Made by a program: the position numbers and the translations under genes. Below are positions 793 to 36,631 of a stretch of 43,236 bases of DNA, one piece after another (position 1 is the first letter of the stretch; each line of letters opens with the position of its first letter). The DNA comes from Clostridia bacterium (GTDB taxonomy: Bacteria > Bacillota > Clostridia > Christensenellales > Aristaeellaceae). Below the pieces are notes generated by a model that was not told the DNA's origin, did no database searches, and saw only the letters and a program-made list of their open reading frames with translations. Location: assembly GCA_017544935.1 (NCBI GenBank), contig JAFYDF010000075.1:1-43236 (forward strand). Reading direction: 5' to 3'.

Positions 793-825
793 GCGGCTGG
801 CTGCTTCAAAAATGCAGCCGGCCGC
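793..825 (+). terminator. Strong hairpin after the MarR gene
   Basis: A 12-bp stem (GCGGCTGGCTGC at 793-804 with GCAGCCGGCCGC at 814-825, one G-T pair) encloses a 9-nt loop about 60 bp after the MarR stop. No clean T-run follows, so termination may be weak or factor-assisted. Confidence 0.55.
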
Positions 826-972
826 ATTGCATCAAAATTAACGTTCTTTGCAAAAGACAGGATCCGTGTGATTCTTGTCAACGATTCTCTGGGATTCTGA
901 GGATCAAAAAGCGGGCTGCCATGCGCACAAAAGCGCCCATGGGAACGCGCCGATCATTGCTGAAGCAACAGA

Positions 973-1002: not shown

Positions 1003-2010
1003 TTAAGTAGATAAAATATCAGGGACTTCTTTCCTTTTTTTCGCACTGTATTTTTTTCTGGCTCGTTGTTGGGCTCCACTTTCATCTATGGCAATATTGC
1101 TCCGACGTTGCTTTTCTGCCTGCACTGCCTCATATGTTTCCTTCGGAATGATTGCATCAACTCCATTTGTCATACAGAACTGCTCGTGGAGAGGTGCTCC
1201 CTTATTACTTCTCCGGACACTGTGCGGATAATTGATTACGACTGTCTTGAAGAGCACGATGTCTCCAATGTATTTTTCGTTGCTCAACATCATATCGATT
1301 GTTCGTACCGGCCAGGTTTCTTTCCCTGAAGGTGAAGGGATATGCCTTTGTTCCAGGTTCCTTTTAATACCATTTATGCTTTCTCCGGATAGATAGAGGT
1401 TAAATATTTCTTTTACGACTTTGGCCTTCAGTTGATCAATGACCAAAATGCCATCCTTTGTTTTCTTGTATCCATAACATGGACGGCGATAAAGCTCAGA
1501 TGTTCCGTCTTCGATCCTTCGCCTTACACCCCATTGCCGCTCTGCGCGATGCGAAGCATTATCTGCTGCAGCCAATCCTGTCAGAAGAGACGTTTGAATC
1601 TCTGCATCAGGAGAATCCGAGGAATATCCTTCGATTGAAAAATACACAATCACGCCTGCGGCAAGAAGTTCCCTCATTGTTGAAAGAGTTTCCTCCGTAT
1701 TTCTTCCGAAGCGCTGTACGCTTTTAGTTATTACAGCATCAATGCGACCGGCCTTGGCATCCTCCACCATTCGATCAAATTCTGGGCGCTTGGTGGACCC
1801 GGAAGCACTATCAAAATCCATATAGATATCGACCAGGTGCCAATCGCCCCTGGAGGCAACAAAGCGTGTCAATTGTGAAACCTGCGCAGCCATACTGTGG
1901 AGTTGTGTTGCGGAACGTGTACTGACGCGGGCATAAATTCCTACATCAGGCAGGAGCTTTTTGAAATTGATGTGAGGCTTTTGAATCTTGGTGATCTTCA
2001 TTTCACTCAT
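1003..2010 (-). CDS. Serine recombinase, short form lacking a zinc ribbon
   Basis: A 335-residue serine site-specific recombinase. The resolvase catalytic domain occupies about residues 22-160, with the motif YARVST at 26-31 and Ser30 as the expected nucleophile. A recombinase domain (about 180-305) contains RRPCYGYKK, SINGIKRNLEQ and a SNEKYIGD motif. Such enzymes form a phosphoserine link to DNA and insert or excise elements. Large members continue into a Cys-rich zinc ribbon and a coiled coil. This one stops after a basic tail (ARKKYSAKKRKE), about where the ribbon usually starts, and has no Cys pair there. It may be a truncated relic or a naturally short form. ATG 2010 has AAGGCGGTG upstream. 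No partner phage or conjugation genes are nearby. Confidence 0.88.
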   Translation of the reverse strand: MSEMKITKIQKPHINFKKLLPDVGIYARVSTRSATQLHSMAAQVSQLTRFVASRGDWHLVDIYMDFDSASGSTKRPEFDRMVEDAKAGRIDAVITKSVQRFGRNTEETLSTMRELLAAGVIVYFSIEGYSSDSPDAEIQTSLLTGLAAADNASHRAERQWGVRRRIEDGTSELYRRPCYGYKKTKDGILVIDQLKAKVVKEIFNLYLSGESINGIKRNLEQRHIPSPSGKETWPVRTIDMMLSNEKYIGDIVLFKTVVINYPHSVRRSNKGAPLHEQFCMTNGVDAIIPKETYEAVQAEKQRRSNIAIDESGAQQRARKKYSAKKRKEVPDILST

Positions 2011-2164
2011 TCAAAACACCGCCTTCAGCTCATGTTATTCACTCATTTTTATCTACTAATTCTAAGAGATTCAGATTCTACACACCCCAATAGTATCACA
2101 AAAATCCATATATTAAAATAGTTTTTTCAGATTCGTATCATTTTTATATTTTGTCTAATCTGCA

Positions 2165-2215
2165 CACATCACAACCCTAATCTTGATACGAGATTGGGGT
2201 TGTGCCTTTTTTGGC
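2165..2215 (+). terminator. Intrinsic terminator, left copy of a repeated hairpin
   Basis: A 14-bp stem (CACAACCCTAATCT at 2170-2183, AGATTGGGGTTGTG at 2191-2204, one mismatch) has the loop TGATACG and is followed by CCTTTTTT. No rightward gene precedes it. A diverged copy of the same roughly 51-bp sequence lies at 4229-4279, after the MFS gene. Confidence 0.75.
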
Positions 2216-2263
2216 TTTAAGTCCTTATTTCACGGCGCTTTCTGGTAAACATCATATGCGATC

Positions 2264-2284
2264 AAACCGCTCAGCGGTTTTTTT
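2264..2284 (+). terminator. Second + strand terminator with no gene before it
   Basis: AAACCGC (2264-2270) and GCGGTTT (2274-2280) pair around a TCA loop and run into four more T residues. This is a canonical small rho-independent terminator. It lies 52 bp after the previous hairpin and likewise follows no recognisable rightward gene. Confidence 0.7.
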
Positions 2285-2337
2285 CAACCCCTCGACCTCC
2301 CATCCCTCACTGGTTACTGGTATATGATGAAAAAAGG

Positions 2338-2397
2338 ATCGTATGCCAGTAGCCGGTATCGTATGGTAGTAGCACCCATCGTATATGAGTATGTTTC
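2338..2397. repeat. Three-copy 20-bp tandem repeat
   Basis: Units begin at 2338, 2358 and 2378 with an exact 20-bp period. Each starts ATCGTAT and continues with a variant of GCCAGTAG, then about five variable bases. The first two copies match well and the third is degraded. The array resembles an iteron or a stacked protein-binding site. It lies in the 737-bp noncoding stretch before the MFS gene. Confidence 0.6.
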
Positions 2398-2405
2398 TGG
2401 CGCGC

Positions 2406-2493
2406 GGCAGAATAATCAACATTAAACTGTTTGCAGAATCACGGGTTCCCCTAGGTATTTGCAGGATTCACAGAGCATTGTGCAGAATTACAG
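2406..2493. repeat. Degenerate TGCAGAATNAC repeats
   Basis: Four imperfect copies of a GCAGAAT-like motif followed by an AC-containing end occur near 2406, 2431, 2459 and 2481. Spacing is irregular (about 22-28 bp). They lie just before a TATAAT box and may be binding sites or decayed repeats. A 61-codon open frame crosses the area but has no ribosome binding site. Confidence 0.35.
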
Positions 2494-2495
2494 AA

Positions 2496-2747
2496 TATAA
2501 TAGATTTCATGCGGTGTTGCTGGATCCTTTGACTCCGCAGCATGGAGCTGATCAATCAGGGGTGTTTTGAGTTGAAGCATGAGTTGAATGGCGTATCATA
2601 CGCTGCAGATGTTTCTGCTCCGCGCAAGGTCTGATACGGACGGTACTTGCTCGGAGCGATAACCCTCATGTGGAGGGACCTGATCGTCCGGATCGGGCTT
2701 TGCGCCTGTTGCAATGATCATCAATATGATTTGTAAGGAGCAGAGCC
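2496..2747 (+). promoter_or_regulatory. Candidate promoter -10 and long leader of the MFS gene
   Basis: TATAAT at 2496-2501 has only a weak -35 partner. If used, it gives a leader of about 240 nt. Within it are a 13-bp palindrome GCGTATCATACGC (2591-2603), a small hairpin CCCTC/GAGGG near 2667-2681, a CCTGATC/GATCGGG hairpin just after, and a 30-codon frame (2542-2634) without a clear ribosome binding site. This layout resembles attenuation-controlled resistance genes, but that reading is inference. Confidence 0.35.
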
Positions 2748-4037
2748 ATGAAAAAACTGAATATCATGAAGGAGCTGAAAAGTTTCCTTCTTCTTTGGAG
2801 TTCCCAAGTTGTATCCTCTCTTGGCACAGCGATGACGGAATATGCACTGATCGTATGGGTCTATCGTCAGGAAGGAACGGCATTAAGTATTACGTTGCTC
2901 ACACTTTGTTCGTTTGCACCTACAATCCTGTTCCGATTCATTGCCGGAGCGATTGCAGATCGTTGGAATAAAAAGCGTATCATGCTGGTTGCTGATCTGT
3001 TTGCTGCGTGCGGAACGTTCAGTGTGTATTTGCTGTATTCATTCTCGGCACTTCTGGTTTGGCATCTATATCTGATCAATGTATTGCTCAGTTTCATGAA
3101 TGCGTTCCAGGAACCGGCTGCATTCGTGGCAACCAGTCTTTTGGTTCCAAAGAAGCATTATACCAAGGTAAGTGGGCTGCAGGGCTTTTCCGGTGCCGCG
3201 GTATCCATCCTGGCTCCGGCTTTGGGTGCAAGCCTGTTGGCTCTCGAGGGGTTGAAGGTCGTCCTGATCTGCGATCTTTGCAGCTTTTCCGTAGCGTTCA
3301 TCGTTCTGTTGCTTTTCATCCGGATCCCAAAGGTTGAGAGCACAGAAAAAAGGCAGGATGAACCATTCCAGAAAACCTGCGCGGAAGGCTTTCGCTTTCT
3401 GCGCGGCCACACCGTATTGCTGCGTCTGATCCTGTTTATGACCTGCATCAACTTCCTTGCAAAAATGAGCAACGACGGGCTTCTGTCGCCCTTTGTTCTG
3501 GCAAGGACCGAAGATAACCAGCAGGTATTGGGTGCGGTTCAAAGCTTCGTCGCGCTCGGTGTGATGGCGGGCAGTCTCATTGTGACATGGATGAAGCCTG
3601 TGAAAAACAGACTGAAGCTGATCGGTATCAGCACAGCCCTTGTTTTTTCGGGGAACATCTTCCAGGGTATGTCTCAGCATCCGGCTGTTTGGTGCGCAGC
3701 CGCTTTTGGGTCATATGCCATGGCCGCAATTATGAACGCTCATGTGACGGTGTTTATGCGGGAACAAATTCCATTAGAATTTCAGGGACGTGTTTTCTCT
3801 GCGGAAAGCACGCTGAAAAACTGTGCCATTCCCTTAGGCTTGTTTTTGGGCGGACTGCTGGCGGACCGTTTATTTGAACCGTTGATGGTTTCGGATTCAC
3901 CTCTGCAAAGATGGCTGATACCGCTCTTTGGTGAAGGAACGGGCGCCGGTATCGCCGTGCAGTTCTTTACGATGGGGGTTCTCGGAATCATGTTATGTCT
4001 GGCTTGGTTGAAGATGTCGGATGATTTCAAGGCCTGA
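2748..4037 (+). CDS. MFS exporter, macrolide-efflux (Mef) type
   Basis: A 429-residue major facilitator protein with about twelve hydrophobic helices. The loop after helix 2 carries GAIADRWNKKR (67-77), a motif-A-like sequence. Its overall look (MKELKSFLLLWSSQ, then SFAPTILFRFIAGAIADRW, and later IPLEFQGRVFS) resembles Mef-like drug:proton antiporters. Members export macrolides or other hydrophobic compounds across the cell membrane; the substrate here cannot be read from sequence. ATG 2748 has AAGGAG 9 nt upstream. It stands alone between two related terminator hairpins in repeat-rich DNA with a recombinase nearby, so acquisition by transfer is plausible. Family confidence is high, drug specificity low. 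Confidence 0.85.
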   Translation: MKKLNIMKELKSFLLLWSSQVVSSLGTAMTEYALIVWVYRQEGTALSITLLTLCSFAPTILFRFIAGAIADRWNKKRIMLVADLFAACGTFSVYLLYSFSALLVWHLYLINVLLSFMNAFQEPAAFVATSLLVPKKHYTKVSGLQGFSGAAVSILAPALGASLLALEGLKVVLICDLCSFSVAFIVLLLFIRIPKVESTEKRQDEPFQKTCAEGFRFLRGHTVLLRLILFMTCINFLAKMSNDGLLSPFVLARTEDNQQVLGAVQSFVALGVMAGSLIVTWMKPVKNRLKLIGISTALVFSGNIFQGMSQHPAVWCAAAFGSYAMAAIMNAHVTVFMREQIPLEFQGRVFSAESTLKNCAIPLGLFLGGLLADRLFEPLMVSDSPLQRWLIPLFGEGTGAGIAVQFFTMGVLGIMLCLAWLKMSDDFKA

Positions 4038-4123
4038 GGTAACTGCGGGCAACGCCGCCAGCCACGAATCGAGGCGCAAGTCAACACCTGCTAAGGATAA
4101 GCTTTTATGATCCGGCAAATGAA

Positions 4124-4204
4124 AAATGTGACCATGAACGTTTAGTCACATTTATCCGATGCTTGGTCACATTTCCCGATCAACATTGTGATCTTTGTTC
4201 ACAT
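4124..4204. repeat. GTCACATTT motif array
   Basis: AAATGTGAC (4124-4132) faces GTCACATTT (4145-4153), and GTCACATTT repeats at 4166-4174, exactly 21 bp on. A looser GTTCACAT follows at 4197-4204. Orderly spacing of about two helical turns suggests cooperative protein binding. Multi-repeat ends of this kind are also known for IS21-family elements, but no istA or istB is present. The rest of the 362-bp gap 4038-4399 holds only the terminator at 4229. Confidence 0.5.
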
Positions 4205-4228
4205 GGTATCAATTTAATAATATCGTGC

Positions 4229-4279
4229 CACATTACAACCCTGGTCCTGATGCGGGATTTGGGTTGTGACTTTTTGGGC
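4229..4279 (+). terminator. Terminator, right copy of the repeated hairpin
   Basis: ACAACCC (4235-4241) pairs with GGGTTGT (4261-4267) around a partly paired interior, followed by GACTTTTT. It lies about 190 bp after the MFS stop. Aligned without gaps to 2165-2215, it matches at about 42 of 51 positions by my hand count, including the loop TGATRCG. Confidence 0.65.
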
Positions 4280-4399: not shown

Positions 4400-5629
4400 T
4401 CAGTATTCTAAGGAATGCTTTTGCGATGGCGAAATGTAGAGCTGGTGAACAGCTTTCGGACAGTTTTCCAGCAGGTTCAGTATCCATTCTTTTACTACTG
4501 TTCGAGTTTGTGCATTGCGCCATTTTTGACAGTTTTCATCTGTGAGCAGAACAGCGCTTTTTTCGGGTGTCATTTCACTATCAATTAACAACATATATAC
4601 TGAAGTAAACCAGTTGATAGCTTCTTCATCATCAGCATAAGGGGTTGTTGCCAAAGCCCCTTGTGCCATGATGCGAGCTGTAGAATATGCTTTTTCTCGT
4701 AAAGTCCTATAAATAGATGATTGGGGATTATATATTTGCTCCGTGTGCCATAGAAAACCATCGGCTTTCTTCTCTATGATTCCTACCCATCCAGGATAGT
4801 TTTGTAGCTGCCCCACAGTTATTTGTTGTAAACCATCTTGTTCTACTATAGAAAAACCATGATCATGACCGCATAAATACAAGCCTATACCATATGCACG
4901 AAGCACTTGGCTTAATGCAGAAGCTCCTGGTGTGCGTGCGTTCCTTTCAGACGGCAGAATAGGATGATGACCGATGGCTATCACTGGCGTTTCGTTTGGC
5001 AGTGATTCCAAAACCTTCTGCAACCAAATTAGTGTAGTTCCTTCTATGCCACCATCTGACTTAACCAATTTGTTGTTATCATATTTGTTCGTATCCAATA
5101 GAAGAAGACAAACACCGGCCTTTGTCATGACTGCATAGCTGGCAGAGGCGGTATCGCAACTGAAAGATTGCTCCCAACCATATTGCCTGTATTGGGTGCA
5201 GAACTCATCTGGCCTCATCTTGACACTGTAATCATGGTTGCCCGGAATAATATATACTTCTGCTCCAGTTAGTTGTTTGATGCTACTTGCCCATTGTTGC
5301 ATAAGGACATGCTCTTCCGTGTGGGCATTATTGGTGTTATCTCCTAAGAATAATACAACATCCTTCCCTTTAGCTACCTGAATTATAGCCTCCAACATAG
5401 TCGCTTGATCCTGAGCTTCTCTTGTCAGATGAATATCAGAAATGACGAGATAACTTTCAGTTTCTAGCGTTTCGCAGAAAGCATTGCTAGCATGAACGAC
5501 GGATACTGCTAGAATAAAAATAATTGTTAGAAAAAGCCGGATTCCTATGGTAGAAAAGTCAAACGCCGCAGCTAGCTTTTTATTATCGATATGAAACATA
5601 TTATCGTTTTTGTCCAAATTCTTTTTCAT
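4400..5629 (-). CDS. Membrane-anchored calcineurin-like metallophosphoesterase
   Basis: A 409-residue protein. A hydrophobic segment at about 27-47 (uncleaved anchor or signal peptide) precedes the metallophosphoesterase fold. All five metal-binding blocks are visible: DIH (65-67), GDN (96-98), GNHD (130-133), GHH (220-222) and GHDH (254-257). The fold binds two metal ions and hydrolyses phosphomonoesters or diesters, here probably outside the membrane. After residue 290 a helical tail of about 120 residues has no recognised motif. The ribosome binding site before ATG 5629 is weak (GAGAG). The gene is divergent from the malic enzyme and has its own promoter. Substrate unknown. Confidence 0.85.
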   Translation of the reverse strand: MKKNLDKNDNMFHIDNKKLAAAFDFSTIGIRLFLTIIFILAVSVVHASNAFCETLETESYLVISDIHLTREAQDQATMLEAIIQVAKGKDVVLFLGDNTNNAHTEEHVLMQQWASSIKQLTGAEVYIIPGNHDYSVKMRPDEFCTQYRQYGWEQSFSCDTASASYAVMTKAGVCLLLLDTNKYDNNKLVKSDGGIEGTTLIWLQKVLESLPNETPVIAIGHHPILPSERNARTPGASALSQVLRAYGIGLYLCGHDHGFSIVEQDGLQQITVGQLQNYPGWVGIIEKKADGFLWHTEQIYNPQSSIYRTLREKAYSTARIMAQGALATTPYADDEEAINWFTSVYMLLIDSEMTPEKSAVLLTDENCQKWRNAQTRTVVKEWILNLLENCPKAVHQLYISPSQKHSLEY

Positions 5630-5897: not shown

Positions 5898-7067
5898 TTG
5901 AATTATATGGAAGAATCGCTTCGCCTGCATGGTGAATGGCAAGGAAAGATCGAAGTTGTATCTCGAGTTCCCGTGAAAACGAAGGATGAGCTTTCTTTGG
6001 CATATACTCCTGGCGTGGCACAGCCTTGTTTGGAAATTCAGAAAGATTATAACAAATCTTTCACTCTGACTAGACGTCATAACCTTGTCGCAGTTATCAC
6101 CGATGGAACAGCTGTGCTTGGATTGGGAGATATAGGGCCAGAAGCAGGAATGCCTGTGATGGAAGGGAAATGCGCTTTGTTCAAGGCATTCGGTGATGTT
6201 GATGCCTTTCCAATTTGTGTGCGGAGCAAGGATGTAGACGAGATTGTTCGAACAGTTTACCTGATTTCAGGATCATTTGGAGGCATTAACCTAGAGGATA
6301 TTGCTGCGCCTAGATGCTTTGAAATTGAGCGTAGACTGAAGGAGATTTGTGATATCCCCGTATTTCATGACGATCAGCATGGGACCGCAGTAGTAGTTGG
6401 TGCTGCGCTGATTAATGCTTTGCGTGTGGTAAAGAAAGATATAGGTGAAGCAAAAGTTGTCATCAATGGTGCTGGGTCTGCCGGTATTGCCATTGGCAAG
6501 CATTTGATGAATCTTGGCGTCAAGCATCTGAAAATGGTGGATCGGTTTGGCATACTTTGTGAGGGTGAACAGATGAACTCCGCACAGGAGGAAATGGCGA
6601 AGATTACTAATCCTGAGAAGTTTGCTGGTAAGCTTGCTGATGCCATGAAGAATTCAGATGTGTTTATTGGTGTCAGCGCTCCTCATGTTGTCAGTAAGGA
6701 AATGATACAGTCCATGGCACCCGATGCAATTGTATTTCCAATGGCAAATCCCGTGCCGGAAATTGAACCCGATGACGCATTGGAAGCAGGTGCTGCGGTA
6801 GTAGGTACTGGACGCAGTGATCATCCGAATCAGATTAACAACGTTATGTGCTTTCCGGGTTTGTTCCGGGGTGCACTTGACGTACGCGCCCGTGATATCA
6901 ATGAGGCAATGAAGCAGGCGGCTTCTTACGCACTTGCTGATTTGGTGGCTCCCGAAGAATTGACTGCACAGTATATCCTACCTGTGGCTTTTGACAAACG
7001 CATTGGGCCTGCTGTGGCTGCGGCAGTGGCAAAGGCAGCAAGAGAGAGTGGCGTGGCACGACTGTAA
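5898..7067 (+). CDS. NAD(P)-dependent malic enzyme (oxaloacetate-decarboxylating)
   Basis: A 389-residue short bacterial malic enzyme converting malate to pyruvate and CO2 with reduction of NAD(P). Visible landmarks are catalytic Tyr36 in [27 protein letters not shown] (about 66-84), Lys91 in MEGKCALFK, the metal site [10 protein letters not shown] (131-140) with FHDDQHGTA (156-164), and the dinucleotide motif GAGSAG (191-196). The length fits the stand-alone form without a phosphotransacetylase tail. The start is TTG 5898, because GAGGAGGT (5883-5890) lies 7 nt before it; the ATG at 5907 is too far from that site. Monocistronic by appearance. Cofactor preference cannot be assigned. Confidence 0.95.
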
Positions 7068-7318
7068 CATGTGCTGCTAAATAAATATGGTTCATACAGC
7101 TTCAGCTTTGTTTTCAGATGCAGTTGAATTTGATATATGACAATTGCAAGAAAAAACTGGAAATTGATATATAAGTCATTTAGGCAACAATGAGGAAAGG
7201 AAAGGGCACTTTTCCTAATTATTAATTGCAATTAGATGAGAGAATAATTGTGGACACTTAGCGTTTCTCAAATAATGCATTAGTAAGAAATCTGCAAATC
7301 GGAGGGCAAACATTAGAA

Positions 7319-23545: not shown

Positions 23546-24841
23546 TTACCAGAGTATTTCGTCAATAGGTTTACCGTCAGCATCGGGGAGAGAGAGCCCA
23601 AGTATCTTGGCATAGGTGGGAGCCTCATCGACAATGGGCTTGCGCTTGATGCGAACACCACGGTGGATATCAGGCCCCCAAGCGATCAAGGGGGGCTGCG
23701 GCCCGACATCGGGGTTGTGTCCATGCGTGCCGTGGCCAAATTTGTAGTCACTATTATCTGCGCAGCGGACCCACGGCCGTTGCCAATCGTTGGAGAAAGA
23801 GGTGTAGCCGTCGGATTCGACGACAAACGAAAATTTGCCGGCCAAGCCTTCTTCGCGCATTATTTCTTCTGCGGTATAGACACGGGTGAATCCATAAAGG
23901 CCATCATCGCACATCTCCTGCAGTATGGCATACACACGTTCAGTATCAGCTGGATTTTTAAGGTAAATCTGTGCAGACATGCCCATGGATTTTGCGATGG
24001 CTGTGTAATCGGCTATCTGCCCATCCTCACCGATGGTTAGTAGTCCTTTGTCTGCTAGCAGGGCGTTAAGAGCAATCACACGGCGGATGTTGACCTGCCC
24101 ATGGTCGCTGACGACAAAGAAATCAGTCTTATCGGTGATGCCGACTTCATCACATGCTTTCAGCACAGTCGCGAGAAAAGAGTCTGCTTCGTGAAGGCCG
24201 TGAGTGACTTTGCGGCTGAATACTCCAGTCTCATGCCGATAGGAATCCAGATTAGTGGAATGCAGGAACATGAGGTTTGGTTTGAATTCACGAATCATAG
24301 CTGCAGCGCAGGCATGCTTGAAGAAATCAGTATAAGGGTGCTTGCGGTGGAAGTTATTAATCCAGCAAGCACTGGGATGCACGACTTTTTCGATGGTCTC
24401 CGGACTAGAGCCGCTTTCAGCATAACATTCCTCGGTGGTCTGACCAGGATACTGCGGCCAGTATTCATTGACCAGATAGTCTATGCTTTTGTGGTTACCA
24501 GTTACAGGCCAGAAGACAGACCCAGTTGTAAGACCAGCCGCCTTGGCAGCATCAAAGATGTCGGGGATTTTAACAGCATCATTGAAGAGCTCCCATTTGC
24601 TCTTGACTTCGCCAAGAATAGTTTTTTCATTATTAATAATACCGTGCTTGTAGCAGTATGCGCCTGTACGCATGCTGGTGTGGTTCGGATAGGTAAGAGT
24701 GGGATATACCGAGCGAACTGATTCTACAATAGCGGCCTGGGGTAAAATACGTCCGAAGCAGGGCATATATTGCAGCTCTTCCAGGTCATCATATACCATG
24801 GCATCCTCGGAGACAACCACGATGTGCTGAGCTTTGTACAT
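23546..24841 (-). CDS. Alkaline-phosphatase-superfamily phosphodiesterase (NPP-like), copy 1
   Basis: A 431-residue cytosolic member of the nucleotide pyrophosphatase/phosphodiesterase group. Metal and catalytic residues are in place: Asp13 (SEDAM), nucleophile Thr50 in TLTYPNHTSMRTG, Asp and His in LDSYRHETG, Asp-His in VVSDHGQ, and a final His in GHGTHGHNP. The enzyme uses two zinc-type ions to cleave phosphodiester or phosphomonoester bonds, perhaps nucleotide or glycerophospho compounds. No signal peptide is present, which is unusual because many NPP enzymes are secreted. It begins 15 bp after copy 2, to which it aligns over its whole length. Second gene of the operon. Confidence 0.85.
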   Translation of the reverse strand: MYKAQHIVVVSEDAMVYDDLEELQYMPCFGRILPQAAIVESVRSVYPTLTYPNHTSMRTGAYCYKHGIINNEKTILGEVKSKWELFNDAVKIPDIFDAAKAAGLTTGSVFWPVTGNHKSIDYLVNEYWPQYPGQTTEECYAESGSSPETIEKVVHPSACWINNFHRKHPYTDFFKHACAAAMIREFKPNLMFLHSTNLDSYRHETGVFSRKVTHGLHEADSFLATVLKACDEVGITDKTDFFVVSDHGQVNIRRVIALNALLADKGLLTIGEDGQIADYTAIAKSMGMSAQIYLKNPADTERVYAILQEMCDDGLYGFTRVYTAEEIMREEGLAGKFSFVVESDGYTSFSNDWQRPWVRCADNSDYKFGHGTHGHNPDVGPQPPLIAWGPDIHRGVRIKRKPIVDEAPTYAKILGLSLPDADGKPIDEILW

Positions 24842-24856
24842 GACTCACCTTCCTAA

Positions 24857-26152
24857 TTACAGCAGGATTTCATCAATTGGCTTACCATCAGCATCGGGCA
24901 GGGAGAGGCCGAAGATCTTGGCATAGGTTGGAGCTTCATCCACGATAGGCTTGCGTTCTACGACTGCACCTGCCTTGATATCGGGACCGCATGCAATCAG
25001 AGTGGGCTGCGGGCCTTTGTCGGGATGATGACCATGCGTTGCACGGCCAAATTTATAATCGCTGTTATCTACGCGGCGCACCAGCGGGCGGGTCCATGCG
25101 TTGGAGAATGAGGTGTATCCGTCGGTTTCGAGCACAAAAGCAAACTTGCCGCTCAGACCTTCTTCGTGATCTGCTTCTTCAGCAGTGTATACACGTTCAA
25201 AGCCATACAATCCGTCTTCCACCATGCTCTTCAAGGTATCGTATACACGGTCATGATCCTTTTCGTCCTTCAGATAGATCTGTGCAGACAAGCCGGTGGA
25301 TTTGGCAATGGCTACGTAATCGGCTACCTGCCCATCCTCGCCTACTGTGAGGAGACCTTTTTCTGCCAGAAGTGCGTTGAGGGCGATGGAACGGGTGATA
25401 TTCAGCTGGCCATGATCACTGACAATAAACAGGTCAGTATCATTTTCAATACCGGCATCACGGCAGGCTTTGAGAATCTCACCCAACCACAGATCAATTT
25501 CATGCAGACCATGTGTCACCTTGCTGCTGAAAAGACCGGTCTCATGACGATAGGCGTCAATGTTGGCGGGATGGATCATCAATAGGTTGGGCTTGAACTC
25601 ACGAATCATGCTGCAGGCGCATGCATGCACAAAAGCATCACAATGCGGATGCTTGCGGTGCAGACCATCTACAAGCATCATATTGGGTTTAACGACTTTT
25701 TCAATAACTTCAGGAGAGGAACCGCTGTTGGCAAAGCATTCCAGTGTAGTCTCTTCAGCCGATTGCGGCCAGTATTCATCGACCAGGTAGTCAATATTCT
25801 TATGGTTGCCGGTTACCGGCCAGAAAACGCCAGCAGTAGTGAGACCGGCAGCCTTGAAAGCATCAAAGATGTCTCCGACCTTAACAGCATCATTGAACCA
25901 TTCCCAGTCACTCTTGGCCTCGGTCAGGTTTGTCAGTTCGTTATTGATAATGCCATGCTTTCCGCAGTAGGCACCTGTACGCATGCTAGTATGATTTGGA
26001 TAGGTGATGGTAGGGTATACCGAACGGACGGTTTTTACGATGGCAGCATTTTGCATTACTGCACCGAATGAAGGCATTTGACGCAGCTGCGCCAGATCTT
26101 CATAAACCATGGCGTCTTCCGAGATTACGATCAGATGTTTTGCTTTGCCCAT
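24857..26152 (-). CDS. Alkaline-phosphatase-superfamily phosphodiesterase (NPP-like), copy 2
   Basis: A 431-residue paralog of the downstream gene, exactly the same length and alignable without gaps. The same landmarks are present: SEDAMVYED, TITYPNHTSMRTG, IDAYRHETG, IVSDHGQ, RATHGHHP. Differences cluster at about residues 155-175, a likely substrate-contact region. ATG 26152 has GAGGAGG 9 nt upstream; a longer frame to 26188 lacks a site. It has its own promoter and is first in a two-gene operon with the copy at 23546. The adjacent DeoR-type gene is a plausible regulator. Substrate not determined. Confidence 0.86.
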   Translation of the reverse strand: MGKAKHLIVISEDAMVYEDLAQLRQMPSFGAVMQNAAIVKTVRSVYPTITYPNHTSMRTGAYCGKHGIINNELTNLTEAKSDWEWFNDAVKVGDIFDAFKAAGLTTAGVFWPVTGNHKNIDYLVDEYWPQSAEETTLECFANSGSSPEVIEKVVKPNMMLVDGLHRKHPHCDAFVHACACSMIREFKPNLLMIHPANIDAYRHETGLFSSKVTHGLHEIDLWLGEILKACRDAGIENDTDLFIVSDHGQLNITRSIALNALLAEKGLLTVGEDGQVADYVAIAKSTGLSAQIYLKDEKDHDRVYDTLKSMVEDGLYGFERVYTAEEADHEEGLSGKFAFVLETDGYTSFSNAWTRPLVRRVDNSDYKFGRATHGHHPDKGPQPTLIACGPDIKAGAVVERKPIVDEAPTYAKIFGLSLPDADGKPIDEILL

Positions 26153-26202
26153 GACGGACATCCTCCTCATTATATATTCACTTTGCATTAAAAACCGCCG
26201 TC

Positions 26203-36605: not shown

Positions 36606-36631
36606 GGGAGAAGCGGAATTCCGCTTCTCCC
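36606..36631 (-). terminator. Perfect 26-bp palindromic terminator after the sugar ATPase
   Basis: GGGAGAAGCGGAA (36606-36618) is followed at once by its complement (36619-36631), then CGTTTTCG on the minus strand. It lies between the ABC ATPase and the GNAT gene. Confidence 0.82.

Follow-up and report, generated by a model that had tools for sequence, protein, structure and literature searches.

The window, by which we mean the whole 43,236-nucleotide stretch of DNA that was analysed, contains near its start a gene for a 429-residue MFS exporter (2748 to 4037, forward strand; Pfam MFS_1, E 1.7e-26, and MFS_3), whose matches to Mef-like families of NCBIfam fall far under the cut-off. The gene sits between two related 51-bp stretches, one on each side, at 2165 to 2215 and at 4229 to 4279. 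An earlier note, made from the sequence letters, had described these stretches as terminator-like direct copies of about 80% identity that share the loop TGATRCG. This description is borne out: 42 of the 51 bases are identical in direct orientation, and both stretches fold strongly on the forward strand, at -25.8 kcal/mol for hairpin 1 (2165 to 2215; z -6.15) and at -25.4 kcal/mol for hairpin 2 (4229 to 4279; z -4.14). None of 200 shuffles equalled either value, and each hairpin is followed by a T-run. The pattern ACAACCC-N6-TGATNCG-N6-GGGTTGTG, with up to three mismatches, has two matches in the window and none in 100 shuffles, which is a mild test as the pattern was derived from the two window copies. 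Rfam, searched over the whole window at gathering thresholds, returned no match.

The source genome (G000; 2.0 Mb in 169 contigs, 87% complete) contains a third close copy of the hairpin, on the reverse strand of contig C137 (231 to 264), and two sister-type copies on contig C14. When C137 is reversed and compared with window positions 2165 to 2434, 267 of 270 bases are identical (99%), with 2165 as the very first matching position. Left of the match lies an intact tRNA-Ser(CGA), whose final CA provides the first two matched bases, and this register places the deduced left exchange core of the exporter cassette at the CA at 2165 to 2166 (forward strand). In this genome or its population, position 2165 is therefore joined to two different sequences. 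Assembly branching, mixed strains or a genuine second copy could each account for the two junctions and would look alike, because C137 ends inside the stretch that it has in common with the window. Its tip of 135 identical bases does resemble a branch of the assembly graph, as expected if the junction were an artefact arising from the repeated terminator sequence; but independent genomes show the same junction between a tRNA CCA and a left end, with the tRNAs whole, and we consider an artefact unlikely. Even so, it would bear on one item of evidence and be compatible with the cassette reading developed below. The far end of C137 (L007, 6820 to 7773) carries a reverse-transcriptase-like, group II intron-like open reading frame, named by eye.

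The left ends found in relatives have the architecture CCA-C-N15-TTGATAC, in which the motif usually coincides with the hairpin loop, and the right ends read GTATCAA-N15-CCAC. TTGATAC and GTATCAA are reverse complementary and equidistant from the CA, and a right end joined to a left end gives a palindrome centred on it. The left end of the window, CA-C-N15-TTGATAC, occupies 2165 to 2215 on the forward strand, with the motif at 2183 to 2189 within the hairpin at 2171 to 2204 and its T-run. The right end, GTATCAA (4206 to 4212)-N15-C[CA]C, occupies 4200 to 4231 on the same strand and has its deduced core CA at 4229 to 4230; it is the single match of the right-end pattern in the window, at one mismatch, and 100 shuffles gave none. 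From 2165 to 4229 the cassette measures 2,064 bp, equal to the spacing of the 51-bp repeats. The deduced exchange points would thus be the CA dinucleotides at 2165 to 2166 and 4229 to 4230, not the hairpin stems. Hairpin 2 (4229 to 4279, forward strand) is a decayed terminator resembling a left end, with CTGATGC instead of TTGATAC; it directly follows the right end, in the position that a terminator or the next left end takes behind right ends elsewhere. It probably lies outside the exporter cassette and probably represents the pre-insertion terminator behind the target, or else an earlier element's left end. The suggestion of the earlier note that the hairpins bound a mobile cassette therefore holds in that a left and a right end of one att family bound the exporter and that a junction exists at 2165, but exchange would take place at the CA rather than the stems and the second hairpin would be external.

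Further sequence elements lie inside these ends. An array of about 20-bp units (ATCGTATGNNAGTAGCC), one of them inverted, can be read at 2310 to 2395 on the forward strand, and the array at the equivalent place in G027 is longer. Ahead of the right end, inverted repeats of the GTGACC/GGTCAC type extend from 4108 to 4204 (forward strand), and 74% of window positions 4128 to 4218 (91 nt) are matched in G027 (L042, 6406 to 6494). In several subfamilies, the left end is closely followed on its inner side by iterated units of about 13 to 22 bp that differ in sequence (window 2337 to 2395; L042, 5620 to 5750; L170, about 1282 to 1340; L171, 660 to 740); they may serve to bind a protein involved in replication or recombination.

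We searched 150 genomes of the family with the left-end pattern ACAAC-N7-TTGATACGA-N7-GTTGT, allowing up to two mismatches and leaving the stem bases free. It was found in 18 of the 150 genomes, two of which (G134 and G177) match at two mismatches only, and the reversed control gave one match. One match in G177, on contig C3, is coding and was rejected as chance. An exact scan for left ends returned 42 stretches in genome_contigs, nearly all from Clostridia or Clostridiales MAGs and many of ruminant gut, and 3 in viral_contigs. The 3' end of a tRNA or tmRNA precedes most of the 45 distinct left-end sites, and a simple rule recognises a tRNA-like context at 24 of the 36 sites with at least 130 bases upstream. 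The targets comprise Ser, Ala, Leu, Arg, Met and Pro tRNAs as well as tmRNA. Among the 12 remaining contexts, six have GTATCAA-N15-CCA, and the others include the window and a match in Marinomonas (L082) that was rejected as chance. When the left-end profile is run along the upstream arms of these 12 contexts, it peaks at offset 0 with a mean of -13.7, the next best offset reaching -24.1; on tRNA arms it has no scoring match.

The right-end pattern gave 20 matches in 13 of the 150 genomes and none when reversed. Eleven of these 13 genomes are among the 18 with left ends (Fisher P-value 1.5e-10, with the source genome counted). For a survey of what lies downstream we accepted 16 right ends, judged by eye and with evident regex noise left out. 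A left end directly follows in 5 of them, another terminator-like palindrome in 8 and neither in 3. A left end or terminator in this place is the arrangement expected if insertion separates a tRNA from the terminator that belongs to it.

The distance between tRNA and motif is also fixed when the search does not impose it. With the spacing left open (GGTTCGA-N15-CCA-N{4,30}-TTGATAC), the 150 family genomes yielded 82 sites in 52 genomes, 67 of them at a gap of 16 bases, 8 at 15 and 7 elsewhere, and 391 genomes of the class yielded 75 sites in 64 genomes (46, 7 and 22, respectively). The binomial P-values for this register, 7e-81 in the family and 3e-46 in the class, treat the sites of related genomes as independent. 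The reversed pattern matched once in each set (G064 and G273), and the source genome gave no exact match because its copy on C137 reads TTGACAC. In 60 loci drawn from the 75 class-level sites, a crude score detected a strong stem around TTGATAC at 17 of 40 on-register sites compared with 2 of 20 off-register sites. The motif is thus often kept without a tight hairpin loop, which favours a DNA site over a mere terminator loop.

These data bear on the possibility that we are dealing with normal tRNA terminators whose loop is conserved and which duplication or gene conversion has spread, the exporter merely happening to lie between two of them. The hairpins do fold and look like terminators and are located at tRNA ends; yet the right ends carry the inverted motif at the matching spacing, 23 of the 40 on-register class sites are without a strong stem on the crude score, the genes differ between the same ends and position 2165 has its alternative junction. 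We regard this reading as quite improbable. Of the two origins that the earlier note had considered, a cassette or a past duplication, the att-family ends and the alternative junction favour the cassette, and duplication becomes the less favoured one.

The same note had proposed searching related genomes for an empty site with a single copy. A comparison of tRNA-Ala(CGC) within the genus of G149 revealed none with syntenic flanks and gave little match outside the tRNA. Same-genus homologues of the phosphoesterase encoded at 4400 to 5629 share only 27 to 37% identity and mark no orthologous empty site. G181 was rejected as an empty site: its terminator resembles the one behind the right end of G149, and the flanks are not shared. 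In another locus (L224; G184, contig C73, positions 41 to 375), a 23-base piece of tRNA-Ala is present in four copies at a spacing of 104 bases.

Left of 2165, a short serine recombinase of 335 residues (1003 to 2010, reverse strand) has Resolvase and Recombinase domains and no Pfam match to a zinc ribbon. Its homologues in other genomes are open frames of 333 to 364 residues, and we rejected the reading of the window gene as truncated on account of their similar length. At E <= 1e-60, the other 149 genomes of the family contain five more such genes, with 39 to 46% identity, distributed over 4 genomes. One homologue in G127 starts about 150 bp from a left-end-type hairpin, as in the window, and beside another homologue in that genome (L174) GTATCAT-N23-CA precedes the hairpin, in what is a single comparison. 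The window has GTATCAT-N23-CA at 2135 to 2166 (forward strand), which probably forms the right end of an element carrying the recombinase, and its arm upstream of 2165 is off the N15 register (left-end profile score -33.8). Because of the like arrangement in G127, two elements probably lie side by side in the window, the recombinase element up to 2165 and the exporter cassette from there on, and the 335-residue recombinase probably belongs to the former. Farther left, behind a MarR-like gene (169 to 729), a decayed right end of the sister type, one base under the consensus length, can be aligned at 825 to 853 (forward strand). Its gapped local alignment score is 38, the maximum in 60 shuffles being 32, and the ungapped sister-type pattern has no match in the window; it is only suggestive of a third element.

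In relatives, serine recombinases lie next to the left ends themselves. Among 51 loci, 11 distinct sites have a homologue of the L043 gene, complete or as a fragment, downstream of the left end (L043, which is also the L078 site, L076, L084, L096, L104, L106, L109, L113, L116, L117 and L118). At six of the 11 (L084, L096, L113, L116, L117 and L118) the genes form a tandem pair, as they also do behind a tRNA-Ala(GGC) in G077 (L158), and at all these sites, L158 included, the pair that stands behind the left end is LSR-A plus LSR-B. L083 shows a weak match only, to the window recombinase. Two of these serine recombinases, of 528 and 467 residues (P0002 and P0003), are full-length and combine a Resolvase, a Recombinase and a zinc-ribbon domain, so that relatives possess the integrase beside an att site that characterises LSR elements. 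The best NCBIfam match of LSR-A is CcrB, whose cut-off of 900 bits is far from reached at 119.4 bits. The earlier note had thought excision by the nearby recombinase conceivable. A serine recombinase does seem to be involved, but the 335-residue gene looks like that of the neighbouring element, and the full-length CcrB-like recombinases beside left ends in relatives appear to be better integrase candidates. At the class level, 38 on-register loci extend over 1 kb downstream, and 3 of them have a recombinase within 6 kb, compared with none of 19 off-register loci. Since so few are near one, most class-level on-register sites are remnants, non-autonomous copies or something else.

Elements of another kind might in principle produce such ends. 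MITEs or transposons of the DDE type that have short motifs at their termini, duplicate a CCA(C) target and prefer tRNA ends would fit the direct CCAC at both ends, as target duplication, and the inverted TTGATAC and GTATCAA, as inverted ends; but serine recombinases adjoin the left ends and DDE elements would not normally be expected to keep to one CCA target across many types of tRNA, making them a very remote prospect. Mobilisation by a tyrosine recombinase encoded elsewhere, the type of integrase used by most known tRNA islands as far as the available portion of one source goes (PMC4383910), is hardly credible either, because a long block of identity to the tRNA 3' end is missing and the match begins in the last two tRNA bases.

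The genes carried between ends of the same type differ among relatives. They include open frames of 172 residues in G027, 199 in G149, 147 in G113 and 270 in G111, none of which reaches the threshold of any Pfam family; the last has a sub-threshold match to a transporter (E 0.0015; 18.2 of 31.6 bits). The earlier note would have counted different genes between the same hairpins as evidence against mobility, yet this is what a cassette family predicts. An MFS-like exporter, named by eye, lies downstream of a left end in G077 (L091), and no right end was found for it. A tRNA is present in the locus of all three exporter homologues with at least 54% identity (G010, G027 and G051), whereas none was seen in the 26 loci with 52% identity or less (P-value 0.0003, Fisher test, with an identity threshold chosen after the data were seen). 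The orthologues in G010 and G027 are without both hairpins, an indication that gain and loss as well as decay play a part. On contig C14 of the source genome (L006), 170-bp direct repeats with 89% identity (1 to 169 and 6922 to 7091), each containing a right end together with a hairpin of the sister type, enclose an apparent pst/phoU/phoB/phoR operon, named by eye. This stretch is possibly a 6.9-kb cassette of the same family as the exporter cassette.

From the sequence comparisons we consider it likely that the exporter is the cargo of a 2,064-bp non-autonomous cassette, which would belong to a serine-recombinase integrative family targeting the CCA ends of many tRNA and tmRNA genes. Such cassettes would enter immediately downstream of the CCA and come to lie between the gene and the terminator that belongs to it. 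In the circle, right end and left end would be joined into the attachment site GTATCAA-N15-C[CA]C-N15-TTGATAC, which is palindromic around the central CA. Both inverted motifs would be bound by a large serine recombinase, for which the CcrB-like pair of autonomous relatives is the probable candidate, and strand exchange at the CA would join the cassette to the CA of the tRNA CCA. The left arm would fold as a terminator, and the tRNA would in this way retain a stop signal after insertion. The exporter cassette would be mobilised in trans, and repeated insertion at one site would build head-to-tail stacks of cassettes, with hairpins of the same family between successive genes.

The T-arm sequence GGTTCGA of tRNAs stands 15 bases before the CCA, the distance at which GTATCAA stands in the right end, and the two have four of seven bases in common. 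Recognition of the T-arm would explain the broad range of tRNAs; the likeness may also be coincidence, since nearly every tRNA has GGTTCGA and the left-end profile fails there. Tentatively, and with slightly less than even confidence, we extend the cassette reading to a system present throughout the Clostridia, in which serine recombinases target T-arm and CCA, any tRNA or tmRNA can receive small cassettes, the hairpin serves both as att arm and as replacement terminator, and tRNA ends act as scattered integron-like platforms.

The nearest known systems appear to be the ssrA islands of Dehalococcoides and SCC, because both combine paired CcrB-like recombinases with stacked, partly non-autonomous islands. 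SCC has a single insertion site, in rlmH (orfX), whereas the insertions described here are at tRNA and tmRNA CCA ends, and the recombinases are homologous to the CcrA/B/C family but score far under its cut-off (CcrB, 119.4 bits against 900). Common to SCC and the family described here, in part according to the available sections of PMC3146451, are a CcrA/CcrB-like serine recombinase pair (ccrAB in SCC), stacking and non-autonomous elements at the same site. The same sections describe the Dehalococcoides islands (DsiB/DsiA) as standing in tandem behind the tmRNA gene, with a CcrB-like large serine recombinase beside attL and a second serine recombinase; the integration module is carried by 16 of 31 islands and absent in the rest (PMC3146451). 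As far as these sections go, the autonomous relatives, though not the window cassette, resemble them in the LSR-A/LSR-B pair behind the left end. In contrast, the Dehalococcoides islands insert inside the T-loop of one gene and show a 20-bp direct repeat of ssrA (PMC3146451, in the sections available), whereas here the junction lies at the CCA of many tRNAs and tmRNA, sequence identity at the window junction reaches no farther than the final two bases of the tRNA, a terminator-like hairpin forms the left arm and a cassette may contain as little as one gene. Tn4451-like IMEs, in the accessible part of PMC5704250, likewise combine a serine recombinase with a 2-bp exchange, here one deduced from symmetry, and very short repeats. 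In that part, serine-integrase IMEs are said to insert inside genes or to be of low specificity (PMC5704250), unlike the present cassettes, which leave the tRNA gene whole.

Relative to the Dehalococcoides islands and SCC, the CCA target in many tRNAs, the arm predicted to form a terminator and the single-gene size set the present cassettes apart. Integron cassettes are small single-gene units with folded recombination sites and occur in stacks. The cassettes described here share these features; unlike in integrons, their sites are at tRNA ends and the fold is apparently a terminator. A literature search, judged by titles and the beginnings of abstracts, returned no recognised description of the tRNA-CCA cassette system.

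Serine integrases usually use one site, and most tRNA islands have tyrosine integrases matched to one tRNA. If the cassette reading is true, insertion at the CCA of many tRNAs, with the att arm acting as terminator, would explain how tRNA genes tolerate repeated insertion, and the recombinase pair would have a predictable and widespread target. It would also provide a simple sequence rule to find single-gene mobile cassettes in gut Clostridia, with exporters and small membrane proteins as their cargo. Elsewhere in the window, two tandem genes at 23553 to 26172, about 70% identical at the DNA level, appear to be an old duplication, and a perfectly self-complementary stretch of 26 bp lies at 36606 to 36631.
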